NCBI GenBank assembly: GCA_018333995.1 | Contig: JAGXSG010000023.1 | Span: 1-48,522, forward strand | Direction: 5' to 3' | Source: Clostridiales bacterium | GTDB taxonomy: Bacteria; Actinomycetota; Coriobacteriia; Anaerosomatales; SLCP01 | DNA: 48,522 nt | Shown: one piece after another, positions 43,105-48,522 of the stretch | Numbering within the stretch: the stretch's first letter is position 1 | Layout of the letters: the number at the start of each line of letters is the position of its first letter | The notes under the pieces: model-generated | Seen by the model: the letters and a program-made list of their open reading frames with translations, nothing else | Told to the model about the DNA's origin: nothing | Database searches by the model: none | Translations under genes and position numbers: made by a program

Positions 43105-46005
43105 ATGTCGGCGGTTCGCGTACCCAAACGCACTGTCAAGCGCCCCACGGGTGAGGAGTACGCCGCCCTCACGCGTCACGAAGTGTTCGCCCAGACAGGA
43201 TCGGGCCCGTCAGGTCTCGATCAACCCACCGCGGCCGAACGGCTCCTTTCTGCCGGGCCAAACGAGATCAACGAGGCGGTGGTCCATCCTCTGCCGCTTC
43301 GGTTCTTCGAGCACTTCTACCACTTGTTCGCGCTCATGCTCTGGGTTGGCGCCGCCCTTGCGTTCCTCGGCGGATTACCTGAACTTGCCTGGGCGATCAT
43401 CGCAGTCATCGTGATCAACGCCGTGTTCTCCTTCTGGCAGGAGTACCGCGCCGAGAAGGCGACCGAGGCCCTCAAGCGGCTGATCCCCCGCACCGCACGA
43501 GTGGTTCGCGCCGGGGTGACGCTCGAGATACCCGCAGCCGAGGTGGTGTTTGGCGACCTTCTCGTGCTTGAGGAAGGCGGCAGCATCCCGGCGGACGCCC
43601 GCCTCGTCGAACAGTTCGAGTTACGTGTCGACCAGGCCTCTCTCACAGGCGAATCGACGCCAGTACGCCGAAGCGCAGAGCCGGCCACCGAGCGGTACGC
43701 CAACTCGACCGACATCCCCAACCTCGTGTTCGCGGGCACCAACGTGGTTCACGGACGCGGCTCGGCCGTAGTGGTCGCGACCGGCATGGACACGCACTTC
43801 GGAACCATCGCCGGGCTGACCCAGTCACTCGGCGATAGTCTATCGCCCCTTCAGCGCGAGATGGGCAGGGTGACGCGCCTCGTAGCGGTGCTCGCGACGA
43901 CACTCGGCGCGGTCTTCTTCTCGCTTGGCTACTTCGTCGCAGAGCTGCCGCTAGTCACCGGCCTTCTCTTCGCTGTGGGAATCATCGTCGCGAACGTTCC
44001 CGAGGGCCTTCTGCCCACCGTCACTCTAGCCCTCGCCATGGGCGTGCAGCGGATGGCGCGCCGAGCCGCGCTCGTCAAGCGTCTCTCGGCGGTAGAGACC
44101 CTTGGGTCGACCACAGTGATCTGCACCGACAAGACCGGCACGCTCACAGCGAACGAGATGACCGTCCGGGCGGTCTGGATCCCGGACTCTACGGTCGAGG
44201 TGACCGGGACCGGATACGAACCCGTCGGCGAGGTGCTGCTCGAAGGCTTAGCGCCTCCCTCAGACACGGCAACCCGGGTCGCGCGCGCACTAAAGGTCGC
44301 GGCCGCGTGCTCGGACGCGCGTCTCGTCGAACCGGATGATTCGCGGCCGTCGTGGCGCATCATCGGCGACCCTACGGAAGGCGCGCTCGTTGTCGCCGCG
44401 CGCAAGCTTACTCGGCCGGTTTCCGGAGATCATGCCGGAGCCCCCGCAGGCGAACCCGAAGCCACTTCCAGCTCTGCTCCGCGCGTCTTAGAGTTCCCAT
44501 TCGATTCGGTCAGGAAGCGGATGAGCACCGTGCACGCCGCGCCGGAGGGCCTCGTGCTCTTCGCGAAAGGTGCTCCGCGCGAACTGCTCGAGTTGTGTGC
44601 ACGCCTTTGCGACGAACAAGGCGTGCGGCCAATGACCGAAGATGACAGGGCGCACGCTATGCGGCGCAACGATGAGTTCGCGCGGGCGGGCATGCGTGTG
44701 CTGGCCGTGGCCGAGCGGCACATCGGACACACCGATGCGCCGCGCGCCCCGGACGAGGCCGAGCGCGATCTCACCTTCCTCGGTCTCATCGCGATGCACG
44801 ACCCGCCTCGTCCCGAGGTCGAACGCGTGGTCGCTCAGTGCAAGACGGCCGGCATCCGCATCATCATGGTGACCGGCGATTACGGACTGACAGCCGAATC
44901 GATCGCACGCAGGGTCGGCATCGTCGAGGACATATCGACGATCGTCTCCGGGCCTGAGCTCGAGGCGCTCTCCGAGGAAGACCTCGCTGCGCTGCTCGCA
45001 AGCGACAAGCCCATACTTTTCGCGCGGGTCGCGCCAGAGCACAAGATGCGGATAGCGCTCTCGCTCAAGTCGCTCGGACACACAGTTGCGATGACCGGTG
45101 ATGGCGTGAACGACGCGCCCGCGCTGAAAGCGGCCGACATCGGTGTGGCGATGGGCGCTTCCGGAACCGACGTCGCACGCGAGGCCGCCGACATGGTGCT
45201 CGCTGACGACAACTTCGCCTCGATCGTCCACGCGATCGAAGAGGGACGCGCGGTATACGACAATATCCGTCGATTCGTGACGTACATCTTCACGAGCAAC
45301 ATCCCTGAGATCGTCCCATTCATCCTCTTCGTGATATTTGGCATCCCGTTGCCGCTGACGGTGCTCCAGATCATCGCCATCGACCTGGGGACCGATATCC
45401 TCCCCGCGCTCGCCCTCGGAATCGAAAAACCGGAACGCGACGTCATGCGGCGTCCGCCTCGGCCGAGAAGCGAGCGGCTCCTCGACCGCCGAGTGTTGAC
45501 CCGAGCGTACTTCTTCCTCGGTCCCATACAGGCGGTCGCCTGCATGGGAGCCTACTTCTGGGCGTACTGGAGCCGCGGATGGCGGCCTGGAATCGAGCTT
45601 CCCGACAGCGGGGAGCTCTACATGCTTGCTACGACGATGACGTTTGGGGCGGTCGTAGCGACCCAGATCGGCAACGCGTTTGCGCAGCGGACGACTCGTG
45701 AATCGATCACGACCGTCGGGTTTTTCTCCAATCGGCTGCTCCTCGTGGGCATCGCGACAGAGATTGCGCTGTTCGTCCTCTTGACGCACTGGCCTCCACT
45801 TGCTGGCGTCTTCGGTTTTGTCCCGATTGAGGCGCGCGACTGGCTCGTGCTCGCCGCACTCGCGCCTGTATTGCTCATCGCCGACGAGTTGCGCAAGTCG
45901 GTCCTTAGGCGGATGCGGGGGGACGGAGTGTCGGCGGACGCTCCCCTCGGCGGGAATACTCCCCGCATGCACATGCGTGTCACCCATTTTGAGGAGGCAT
46001 CGTGA
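43105..46005 (+). CDS. P-type cation-transporting ATPase (P2 type)
   Basis: A 966-residue ion pump. The cation-ATPase N-terminal domain (about 20-65) precedes TM1-2; the actuator motif TGES is at 181-184; TM4 carries VPEGLL (298-303), as in Na,K- and H,K-ATPases; the phosphorylated aspartate is D342 in CTDKTGTLT; KGAPRELLEL is the nucleotide-domain Lys site; and MTGDGVNDAPALKAADIG is the hinge. About ten TMs in all. The PEGLL motif points to Na+/K+/H+ type (P2C-like) more than to Ca2+ (PEGLP), but the ion is not certain. ATG 43105 has GGAG 8 nt upstream; earlier starts give an odd Cys-rich lead. A 4-nt GTGA overlap couples it to the next gene. Confidence 0.93.
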   Translation: MSAVRVPKRTVKRPTGEEYAALTRHEVFAQTGSGPSGLDQPTAAERLLSAGPNEINEAVVHPLPLRFFEHFYHLFALMLWVGAALAFLGGLPELAWAIIAVIVINAVFSFWQEYRAEKATEALKRLIPRTARVVRAGVTLEIPAAEVVFGDLLVLEEGGSIPADARLVEQFELRVDQASLTGESTPVRRSAEPATERYANSTDIPNLVFAGTNVVHGRGSAVVVATGMDTHFGTIAGLTQSLGDSLSPLQREMGRVTRLVAVLATTLGAVFFSLGYFVAELPLVTGLLFAVGIIVANVPEGLLPTVTLALAMGVQRMARRAALVKRLSAVETLGSTTVICTDKTGTLTANEMTVRAVWIPDSTVEVTGTGYEPVGEVLLEGLAPPSDTATRVARALKVAAACSDARLVEPDDSRPSWRIIGDPTEGALVVAARKLTRPVSGDHAGAPAGEPEATSSSAPRVLEFPFDSVRKRMSTVHAAPEGLVLFAKGAPRELLELCARLCDEQGVRPMTEDDRAHAMRRNDEFARAGMRVLAVAERHIGHTDAPRAPDEAERDLTFLGLIAMHDPPRPEVERVVAQCKTAGIRIIMVTGDYGLTAESIARRVGIVEDISTIVSGPELEALSEEDLAALLASDKPILFARVAPEHKMRIALSLKSLGHTVAMTGDGVNDAPALKAADIGVAMGASGTDVAREAADMVLADDNFASIVHAIEEGRAVYDNIRRFVTYIFTSNIPEIVPFILFVIFGIPLPLTVLQIIAIDLGTDILPALALGIEKPERDVMRRPPRPRSERLLDRRVLTRAYFFLGPIQAVACMGAYFWAYWSRGWRPGIELPDSGELYMLATTMTFGAVVATQIGNAFAQRTTRESITTVGFFSNRLLLVGIATEIALFVLLTHWPPLAGVFGFVPIEARDWLVLAALAPVLLIADELRKSVLRRMRGDGVSADAPLGGNTPRMHMRVTHFEEAS

Positions 46006-46649
46006 ACGTTGTCATCGCCGGGAGCGGCAGGGTTGGAATCCTCCTCGCGACCCGCCTATCGCTTCGCGGACACGCGGTAGCCGTCATCGATCACGACCGT
46101 GCGGCGCTCGCGCGCCTCGGCGCTGGATTCGGCGGAACCGTGGTGCACGGCAAAGCCTTCGATCGAGGCGCCCTCGAGGCTGCGGGCATCGAACACGCCG
46201 ACGCATTCTGCGCGGTCACGAGCGGTGACAACTCCAACGTCGTATCGGCAAAGGTAGCGCGCGAGGCCTACCGCGTTCCCCGTGTCGTAGCACGCATCTA
46301 CGACCCGAGGCGCGCGGAGATATACCGCCGCTTGGGCATCGCGGCCGTTTCGTCGGTATCGTGGTGCGCTCACGAGGTCAGCTCCCTACTGCTCCACCCG
46401 GGTCTTCACCATGAGCTGAGCTTTGGTGACGGAGAGGTACGCCTCGTGACAGTCGAGGTGCCGCCGTCGCTCGACGGCAGACCGGTCGATCTGCTGCAGC
46501 GACCCGGATCGATCTCGGTCGTCGCCCTCGTTCGTTCCGGGTCGTCGTCGATGCCCACTGCGGGTACCGCTTTGTCAAGCGGCGACATGCTTTATGTAGC
46601 GGTTTCCAACGACACGCTGCTCGACCTCGAGCGAATGCTCGAACCGTAG
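46002..46649 (+). CDS. TrkA-type RCK protein (N and C domains)
   Basis: A 215-residue potassium-transport regulator-type protein. RCK-N domain (about 1-120): VVIAGSGRVGILLATRLSLR with the GxGxxG nucleotide site, then VIDHDRAALARL, with D binding the ribose of NAD(H). A TrkA-C domain (about 135-215): VRLVTVEVPPSLDGRPVDLL, then SGDMLYVAVSNDTLLDL. TrkA proteins gate TrkH/KtrB channels in response to NAD(H), ATP or c-di-AMP. No channel gene is in the window; instead the gene overlaps the P-type ATPase by 4 nt, so the pump may be the target. GTG start. Confidence 0.9.
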   Translation: MNVVIAGSGRVGILLATRLSLRGHAVAVIDHDRAALARLGAGFGGTVVHGKAFDRGALEAAGIEHADAFCAVTSGDNSNVVSAKVAREAYRVPRVVARIYDPRRAEIYRRLGIAAVSSVSWCAHEVSSLLLHPGLHHELSFGDGEVRLVTVEVPPSLDGRPVDLLQRPGSISVVALVRSGSSSMPTAGTALSSGDMLYVAVSNDTLLDLERMLEP

Positions 46650-46662
46650 GAGGAGGATCGCT

Positions 46663-47079
46663 ATGTTCGTGCTCATCGTGGGAGGCGGCAAGGTCGGTGC
46701 GGCGCTAGCGCAGGAACTCGGCGACACCGGCCACACGTGCCGCGTCATCGAACAGGACCCCGCGCGTGTCGAGCACCTCGCGGAGGATCACCCTGCTCTC
46801 GATGTGCTGAGAGGCGATGGCTGTGAGCCCGTCGTTCTCGAATCCGGCCGAATCACTCAAGCGGACGCGGTTGCCGCGGTGACCGGTCACGACGAAGACA
46901 ACCTCGTTGTATGCCTGCTCGCCAAGCGGGAGTACAGTGTCCGGGTCACCGTCGCGCGCATCAACGACCCGCGCAACGAGTGGTTATTCACTGAGATGTT
47001 CGGGGTCGACCACACAGTGTCGAGCACCCGGATGATGGCGCACATCCTCGATGAGCATCTCGAGGGGACGAGCGCGTAG
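46663..47079 (+). CDS. TrkA-type RCK-N protein
   Basis: A 138-residue single RCK-N (Rossmann) domain with MFVLIVGGGKVGAALAQELG and VIEQDPARVEHL; the ribose-binding acidic residue is E34 in VIEQD. GDGCEPVVLESGRITQADAV and VTGHDEDNLVVCLLAKREYS are typical of the domain. It has no TrkA-C domain, so it probably pairs with the upstream two-domain protein, as in KtrA-like octameric rings; that is inference. AGGAGGA precedes the ATG, and the gene starts 13 nt after the first RCK gene. Third and last gene of the ATPase operon. Confidence 0.9.
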   Translation: MFVLIVGGGKVGAALAQELGDTGHTCRVIEQDPARVEHLAEDHPALDVLRGDGCEPVVLESGRITQADAVAAVTGHDEDNLVVCLLAKREYSVRVTVARINDPRNEWLFTEMFGVDHTVSSTRMMAHILDEHLEGTSA

Positions 47080-47179
47080 CCGGTCACCTCGCGGACCATG
47101 CCAATGGGTGGGTATCTACTGTTGCGTCGGCCGGTCGGGCCCGTATCGGCCGCACACCCTTACATGCGAGGAGCAACCC

Positions 47180-47992
47180 GTGCCACACGCCATCTGGAAG
47201 GGCTCGATATCATTTGGCCTCGTGACGATTCCAGTAACTCTCTATCCTGCCGAGGAACGCCGCGACCTCTCGTTTAGGATGCTCGACAGGCGAGATCTCA
47301 CCCCCGTCAAGCAACTGCGCGTTAACGCGCGAACCGGAAAGGAGGTGGCGTGGGGGGAGATCGTCAAAGGCTACGAGCTCGAGGACGGCCGGTTCGTGGT
47401 CGTGACAGAAGAGGACTTCCGCGCCGCCGACGTCGAAGCAACCCGTACGATAGACGTGCTCGGCGCTGTGTGCGCGGATGAGATCGATCCGGCTTACTAC
47501 GACAAGCCCTACCACCTCGAACCCGCGCTTTCCGGACGGAAAGCGTACGCGCTCCTGCGTGAAACGTTGCGCCGTACCAAGCGCGTCGCACTCGCCAAGG
47601 TGGTGATCCGCACGCGCCAGCATCTTGCCGCGCTCGTCCCCCACGGACCGCTGCTCATGCTCGAGATCCTGCGCTACCCGCACGAGCTTCGCGCAGCCGA
47701 TACGCTGAAGCTGCCCCCGGCAGACATCACCGAGGCCGGCCTGACCGAAACCGACCTCGCGATAGCGGCGCAGCTGGTTGAGATCATCTCGCGCCCGTTC
47801 GACCCATCCGCCGAGGAGTACCGCGACACGTACCGGGACGCCGTACTGGCGCTCATCGAACGCAAGGCCGAAGGTGGCGCGGTAGCCGCACCGGAAGAGG
47901 TGCCGGAGGCGTGGGCCGAGACCGGCGAGGTCATCGACATCACGGAACTGCTCAAAGCGAGCCTCGAAGCCGCGCGAGCGCGTACGTCGTGA
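47180..47992 (+). CDS. ku: Ku DNA-end-binding protein (bacterial NHEJ)
   Basis: A 270-residue bacterial Ku: a homodimeric ring that threads onto double-strand break ends and recruits LigD. The opening AIWKGSISFGLVTIPVTLYP is diagnostic, as are KEVAWGEIVKGYELEDGRFV, YYDKPYHLEPALSGRKAYAL, and RTRQHLAALVPHGPLLMLEI. The C-terminal tail (about 240-270) is acidic to mixed. GTG 47180 follows GAGGAG by 6 nt. It is directly followed by ligD, so both halves of the NHEJ machinery are encoded together. Confidence 0.96.
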   Translation: MPHAIWKGSISFGLVTIPVTLYPAEERRDLSFRMLDRRDLTPVKQLRVNARTGKEVAWGEIVKGYELEDGRFVVVTEEDFRAADVEATRTIDVLGAVCADEIDPAYYDKPYHLEPALSGRKAYALLRETLRRTKRVALAKVVIRTRQHLAALVPHGPLLMLEILRYPHELRAADTLKLPPADITEAGLTETDLAIAAQLVEIISRPFDPSAEEYRDTYRDAVLALIERKAEGGAVAAPEEVPEAWAETGEVIDITELLKASLEAARARTS

Positions 47993-47997
47993 GCGCC

Positions 47998-48522
47998 ATG
48001 CCGCTCGACGAGTACCGCAGCAAGCGTGATTTCAGCCGGACCGCCGAACCCGCTGGCGAGCCGGACGGCGGACACCGGCGCGTGGCTGTCGGCGCGCTCT
48101 CCTACGTGGTGCACAAGCACGCGGCGCGGAATCTGCACTACGATCTGCGCCTGGAACTCGACGGCGTGCTTCTGTCGTGGGCGGTGCCCAAAGGGCCAAG
48201 CCTCGACCCAGCGGACAAGCGGCTCGCGATGCGGGTCGAAGACCATCCGCTCGAGTATGGCGCGTTCGAAGGCACGATCCCTCCAGGCGAGTACGGTGCG
48301 GGAGCGGTGATCGTGTGGGACCGCGGGACGTGGCGACCTCTCGCAAGCGGCTCCGGAAGTGCGCACGCGGAGCTGGAAGCCGGAGCGCTTAAGTTTGCGC
48401 TTCAAGGCGAGAAACTCACCGGTGCCTGGACGCTCGTGCGAATGAAGCCACGCCCGCGGGAACGCACAGAAAGCTGGCTGCTCATCAAGGAGCGCGACGG
48501 GCACGCGCAGCCTCGCGGCGAG
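47998..48522 (+). CDS. ligD: LigD, N-terminal 3'-phosphoesterase domain (cut by window edge)
   Basis: The first 175 residues of a LigD protein; the frame is open at the right edge. The 3'-phosphoesterase domain cleans 3' ends before joining. Its metal and catalytic residues are all visible: H41, H47, D49 and R51 in VVHKHAARNLHYDLRLELDG, H83 and Y87 in VEDHPLEYGAFEGTIPPGEY. WLLIKERDG near the end closes the domain. A PE domain first suggests the PE-ligase-polymerase order of Pseudomonas LigD, or a stand-alone phosphoesterase; the missing part decides. ATG 47998 lies 5 nt after ku; a GTG at 47989 overlapping the ku stop (GTGA) is an alternative start. Confidence 0.92.
   Translation, partial: MPLDEYRSKRDFSRTAEPAGEPDGGHRRVAVGALSYVVHKHAARNLHYDLRLELDGVLLSWAVPKGPSLDPADKRLAMRVEDHPLEYGAFEGTIPPGEYGAGAVIVWDRGTWRPLASGSGSAHAELEAGALKFALQGEKLTGAWTLVRMKPRPRERTESWLLIKERDGHAQPRGE

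Follow-up and report, generated by a model that had tools for sequence, protein, structure and literature searches.

The window analyzed here, i.e., the whole stretch of 48,522 nucleotides of contig JAGXSG010000023.1 (assembly GCA_018333995.1, Clostridiales bacterium), encodes a P-type ATPase that is directly followed by two RCK (TrkA-like) proteins, here called RCK1 and RCK2 (Table 1). The three genes probably form one transport system of three components, in which the pump would be contacted and gated by dedicated, nucleotide-sensing RCK regulatory subunits. The observations behind this reading are the order and overlap of the genes, the breadth of their conservation, their co-divergence, the ion-site residues of the ATPase, the dinucleotide-fold motifs of the RCK proteins, and the many carriers of the operon in which no TrkH was found.

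It is confirmed that the association of the genes is not due to chance, because the three genes stay ordered in 12 other genomes of the same order and with 48 of 80 further ATPases. At the level of the order, 69 genomes were searched with RCK2 and the stretches around the matches were fetched: ATPase, RCK1 and RCK2 occur in the same order in 13 of them (the window's genome and the 12 others). Outside the order, 584 ATPase relatives were confirmed in one-per-species genomes, and the best 80 of them were taken, which are nearest relatives and not a random sample; RCK genes lie downstream of 48 of these ATPases, both in 46 cases and one before the contig end in two. The carriers belong to four phyla (Actinomycetota, Chloroflexota, Bacillota and Thermodesulfobacteriota), and the identity of outside ATPases heading the operon to the window ATPase is as low as 45%. 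Two loci with long 5' frame extensions (L043, L094) and two at a contig end (L108, L116) were counted as RCK carriers, and L040 was left out of trees and counts, being the same genome stretch as L074. On the ATPase tree (95 rows), the label “RCK-linked” requires 13 changes versus 28.6 with shuffled labels. As a control, the 69 order genomes hold 119 matches of type-II P-type ATPases to Cation_ATPase_C, of which only 13 have a listed RCK within 5 kb (the list comprising 86 places, the stronger matches of the RCK2 search), and these 13 are the operons; 24 further matches are on the contig of a listed RCK but at least 18.9 kb from it, and the remainder lie on other contigs. No RCK was found in three other P-type ATPase stretches, whose ATPases are 37-38% identical to that of the window.

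The layout of the three genes, as claimed by the initial annotation, holds to the base: RCK1 overlaps the ATPase by four nucleotides (GTGA), which presumably couples the translation of both, and RCK2 follows after a gap of 13 nucleotides. This compact arrangement recurs. Among 59 of the 60 operons, the window's included (L080 has the pair but yields no distance), the ATPase-RCK1 distance is exactly -4 nucleotides in 28 and at most 30 in 48, and the RCK1-RCK2 distance is at most 30 nucleotides in 53 of 57. The proteins also diverge in parallel: across 58 operons, pairwise distances correlate between ATPase and RCK1 (r 0.676), ATPase and RCK2 (0.694), and RCK1 and RCK2 (0.773), values reached in none of 2000 permutations, also when permuting inside phyla. 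This shows that ATPase and RCK proteins are inherited jointly, the correlation alone being no proof of contact. Finally, on the main RCK1 tree (81 rows, one of 82, a tandem TrkA, being left out for its length), linkage to the ATPase requires three label changes versus 20.3 after shuffling, and the window RCK1 falls into a starred set of five rows, every one of them ATPase-linked. The assignment of the RCK pair to the P-type pump thus draws on the conserved neighbourhood, the recurring overlap, the parallel divergence and the carriers without TrkH.

Table 1. Features of the ATPase-RCK operon in the window.
Feature	Position	Strand	Remarks
P-type ATPase, type IIC-like (Na,K-ATPase-like), 966 amino acids	43105..46005	+	E1-E2_ATPase and cation ATPase domains; start ATG 43105, stop codon 46003-46005 (open reading frame list and sequence)
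GAGGAGG, putative ribosome-binding sequence of RCK1	45991..45997	+	read from the sequence
GTGA, ATPase stop/RCK1 start overlap, 4 nucleotides	46002..46005	+	sequence
RCK1, TrkA_N and TrkA_C, 215 amino acids	46002..46649	+	start GTG 46002, stop 46647-46649
GAGGAGG, putative ribosome-binding sequence of RCK2	46650..46656	+	read from the sequence
RCK2, TrkA_N only, 138 amino acids	46663..47079	+	start ATG 46663, stop 47077-47079

The ATPase matches the Pfam families E1-E2_ATPase, Hydrolase, Cation_ATPase_N and Cation_ATPase_C and carries the hallmarks of the P-type superfamily, the DKTGTLT phosphorylation motif and the LTGEST loop. Its top NCBIfam model is TIGR01106 (Na,K/H,K-ATPase alpha); since the score of 609.6 bits lies under the cut-off of 946.1, the protein is filed as type IIC-like, short of membership. 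The closest solved relatives are Na,K-ATPase alpha chains, for the single ATPase and for a 12-sequence profile alike. The cation ligands of the Na,K-ATPase we take to be E327, Y771, S775, N776, E779, D804, T807, D808, Q923, D926 and E954, and 10 of these 11 are identical in the window ATPase (E300, Y727, S731, N732, E735, D760, T763, D764, Q854, E886), the position of D926 being occupied by N857. The PEGLL motif noted in the initial annotation is present at residues 299-303. When the ion-site patterns of 60 RCK-linked ATPases were compared (12 commonest patterns per site), the S-N-E of M5 and the Q of M8 were constant, M4 read PEGL (in few cases with P replacing the last L), and M6 read D-T-D except for one D-to-E and one T-to-A replacement. 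Given these conserved ligand residues, Na+/K+ exchange is the likely activity of the pump. The window genome encodes a second type-II ATPase (L156), which is 37% identical, has PEGLPA in place of PEGLL, and has no RCK in its 13-kb stretch.

Of the two RCK proteins, RCK1 yields a structure model (pLDDT 88.6), whose top fold match, as a single chain, is TM1088B of T. maritima (3L4B), followed by TrkA and KtrA; its TrkA_C domain narrowly misses the cut-off of 27 bits in one scan (26.6 bits) and exceeds it in another (28.8 bits). The window RCK2 lacks the C-terminal RCK_C lobe that most orthologues have. Such short forms, consisting of the nucleotide-binding half only, are the RCK2 of 10 of the 58 ATPase-linked pairs; in a further pair a contig end truncates the protein. 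The motif GxGxx(G/A) is kept in 57 of 58 RCK1 and in all 58 RCK2 proteins, and in the window pair beta-2 still ends in an acidic residue (VID and VIE). Both window proteins thus keep the GxGxxG fold along with an acidic residue of the kind that the binding of an adenine nucleotide would call for. The initial annotation had also suggested gating by cyclic di-AMP (c-di-AMP), and a c-di-AMP cyclase domain is present in the window genome. This candidate found no support: the published RCK_C signature for c-di-AMP, (I/L)(I/L)X2DX1RX5N(I/L)(I/L) (PMC10117811, in part), occurs in 0 of 58 RCK1 and 0 of 58 RCK2 proteins, and RCK_C is missing altogether from the window RCK2. The RCK proteins may bind c-di-AMP in some way other than through this signature.

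RCK pairs are known as partners of channels, and the pair might accordingly gate a TrkH channel encoded elsewhere, with the operon merely co-expressing two parts of K+ homeostasis. In T. maritima, two separate RCK proteins, TM1088A and TM1088B, indeed form a ring that is the partner of the TrkH protein TM1089 (PMC4380455, in part), and two trkH genes of the window genome have no RCK beside them; the Trk parts of this genome lie at three places, namely an RCK pair at G000:C16:95091-96392 (L039) and trkH at C2:50726 and C16:60656. However, no match to TrkH/KtrB was found in 32 of the 59 carrier genomes other than the window's. These include five of the 10 genomes for which a completeness of 90% or more and a contamination of no more than 5% are known, as well as isolates (Flexilinea flocculi, two Schleiferilactobacillus, Geomonas and Citrifermentans). 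The second RCK pair of the window genome, moreover, belongs to the clade that is found beside trkH in relatives: its RCK1 falls into a separate starred set of seven rows (support 100), of which four stand beside trkH, two have none adjacent, and one is the protein itself. With 32 of 59 carriers lacking a match and this second pair in a trkH-linked clade, a distant TrkH as sole partner was rejected as a general account, and within the window genome itself such a partner is unlikely; taken as a whole, we regard this explanation as very improbable. The initial annotation, which had raised it, held that an orphan trkH elsewhere, together with trkH-linked orthologues of the same RCK proteins in relatives, would speak against a gated pump: two orphan trkH genes do exist, but the RCK proteins beside trkH in relatives are those of the other clade. 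The operon stretches themselves contain no TrkH, except for L076, where trkH and several RCK genes (one tandem, 457 amino acids) lie on the opposite strand just upstream of the ATPase-RCK-RCK operon (L076:1614-6693). A TrkA_N scan covered 12 of the TrkH-less carrier genomes: in two (G045, G050) the pair represents the only RCK proteins, and in four (both Schleiferilactobacillus, G099 and G104) it is the only strong match, the others being partial and weak.

The client of the pair could also be of another kind. The RCK proteins might serve, or also serve, a KimA-like permease (AA_permease_2/K_trans) or a small K+ channel elsewhere, with the pump as a mere neighbour, which we consider unlikely while granting it some weight. 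Within the order, sister RCK pairs adjoin a KimA-like permease (Pfam AA_permease_2 and K_trans), and the permease-linked RCK1 proteins nest inside the ATPase-linked ones; the clade has therefore changed its partner at least once. G045 and G050, where the pair is the sole source of RCK proteins, hold a KimA-like gene elsewhere, so that the pair could serve both there, and the window genome and both Schleiferilactobacillus encode one small Ion_trans_2 channel each (the latter two also one K_trans match each). On the other hand, neither a KimA-like gene nor K_trans (Kup) gave a match in the window genome, and the uncultured Clostridia G099 and G104 (completeness not known) keep the operon with no match to TrkH, KimA-like, Ion_trans_2 or K_trans; the recurring overlap with the ATPase and the co-divergence likewise argue against a permease or channel as client. 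A role of the RCK proteins as assembly, stability or redox-sensing factors of the pump, instead of allosteric gates, appears still less probable. The reduction of RCK2 in 10 of 58 pairs means that some operons do without the complete gating build, yet TM1088A is likewise short and nevertheless part of a Trk gating ring (PMC4380455, in part).

A dedicated pump regulator remains the preferred reading, and several observations have to be set against it besides the nested permease-linked RCK1 proteins and the possible alternative clients just named. None of the RCK genes follow 28 of the 80 outside ATPases (a further four are cut too early), and while 19 of these 28 come from Nitrospirota, Cyanobacteriota, Pseudomonadota or archaea, six belong to the same phyla as the carriers. 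Strict monophyly of the ATPase-linked RCK1 is rejected (p-AU 1.3e-8), and in a smaller RCK tree (60 rows, motif-trimmed, 50 of 157 rows left out) the pair of L048, which has no adjacent ATPase, falls into the ATPase clade. Six of the 12 TrkH-less genomes scanned have further strong RCK genes, the RCK1 proteins of both Schleiferilactobacillus carry a cysteine at the acidic position, and no ATPase-RCK fusion occurs among 96 ATPase frames. The structure model of the ATPase (pLDDT 65.9) is too weak for use. Moreover, P-type pumps are thought to work as monomers, which sits awkwardly with the docking of a ring.

If the three proteins do act together, the ATPase would drive the ATP-dependent transport of monovalent cations, most likely exporting Na+ and importing K+, and RCK1 and RCK2 would be its dedicated cytosolic regulatory subunits in physical contact with it. 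The two might form a dimer or ring of two subunits like TM1088A:TM1088B, and the ligand of their Rossmann folds would be an adenine nucleotide, either ATP/ADP or NAD(H), so that pump activity might be raised or lowered with the energy or ion state of the cell. In the simplest mechanism, the RCK proteins would dock on the pump as an assembly that depends on the nucleotide. As the three-gene set recurs across phyla, it may represent a pump with an apparently undescribed form of control. We lean, with some reserve, towards the broader view of a widespread bacterial family, seen here in four phyla: an assembly of two RCK subunits would dock on a Na,K-ATPase-type pump and gate it, and the RCK module would be interchangeable among TrkH, KimA-like permeases and the pump. 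If true, one sensor would govern K+ traffic in both its passive and its active form, and the system would reveal the means by which bacteria switch Na,K-ATPase-type pumps. Several carriers are in culture, such as Acetobacterium dehalogenans, Thermoanaerobacterium butyriciformans, Schleiferilactobacillus harbinensis and Citrifermentans bremense, which makes the system directly testable.

The neighbours of the operon tested in the window are a CreD-like gene upstream on the opposite strand and Ku (Pfam) downstream; neither is a channel gene, in agreement with the initial annotation. The stretch 47144-48522 holds Ku, related to non-homologous end joining, and after it a frame that, judged by eye, resembles the phosphoesterase domain of LigD. 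In other genomes, a gene for a membrane-bound pyrophosphatase (H_PPase) lies downstream of the RCK pair (L079:11317-13452, L048:10580-12703), and tandem P-type ATPase genes precede the pair in three stretches (L083:4079-11119, L078:3621-11104, L081:3655-11107), the first ATPase being 41-50% identical to that of the window. Some Chloroflexota have a gene for a distant second APC-type permease upstream of the operon (L137:213-16783; also L131, L135, L138, L078 and L081). The stretch of L137 additionally contains a closer KimA-like permease, KdpD and KdpC, and its setting is therefore one of K+ homeostasis.

Among known systems, the TM1088 system (PDB 3L4B) is similar in that its two RCK proteins come from separate genes and that one of the proteins is short (143 amino acids). 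Both window RCK proteins match TM1088A and TM1088B by sequence, and RCK1 also has TM1088B as its best fold match; the short member seems to be swapped, since the full-length RCK1 scores 71.2 bits with TM1088A versus 67.7 with TM1088B, whereas the short RCK2 scores 42.8 bits with TM1088B versus 37.4 with TM1088A. In contrast to the TM1088 system, with its TrkH channel, the adjacent, overlapping gene for a membrane protein encodes a P-type pump here. The alpha chains of Na,K-ATPase and H,K-ATPase (P-type IIC) are the best solved relatives of this pump, with the agreement in ligands given above; unlike the Na,K-ATPase alpha chain, it stays below the TIGR01106 cut-off, has N at the position of D926, and is encoded together with RCK genes. 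RCK proteins also gate Kef antiporters. The described role of RCK proteins is that of a gate, on K+ channels and on antiporters such as Kht, and in the K+/H+ antiporters KhtTU and CpeAB a soluble subunit bearing RCK_C is encoded with a transporter that is not a channel (PMC10117811, in part). Those systems differ in being secondary antiporters with c-di-AMP-bound RCK_C, the signature for which is absent from the window RCK proteins. No description of an RCK-linked P-type ATPase was found among the matches listed in open-licence full text, subscription papers lying outside this scope, nor does one appear in the portions available of PMC10117811, PMC4380455, PMC10219603, PMC6255902, PMC6957272, PMC7231039 and PMC9651954. 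KdpFABC, in which KdpB works with the channel-like KdpA (PMC6255902, in part), shares the principle of prokaryotic K+ transport driven by a P-type ATPase but belongs to another P-type class, the window ATPase reaching 103.1 of 527.9 bits with the kdpB model. The class of the pump and the class of the regulator are thus both known, and it is their partnership that appears to be new.

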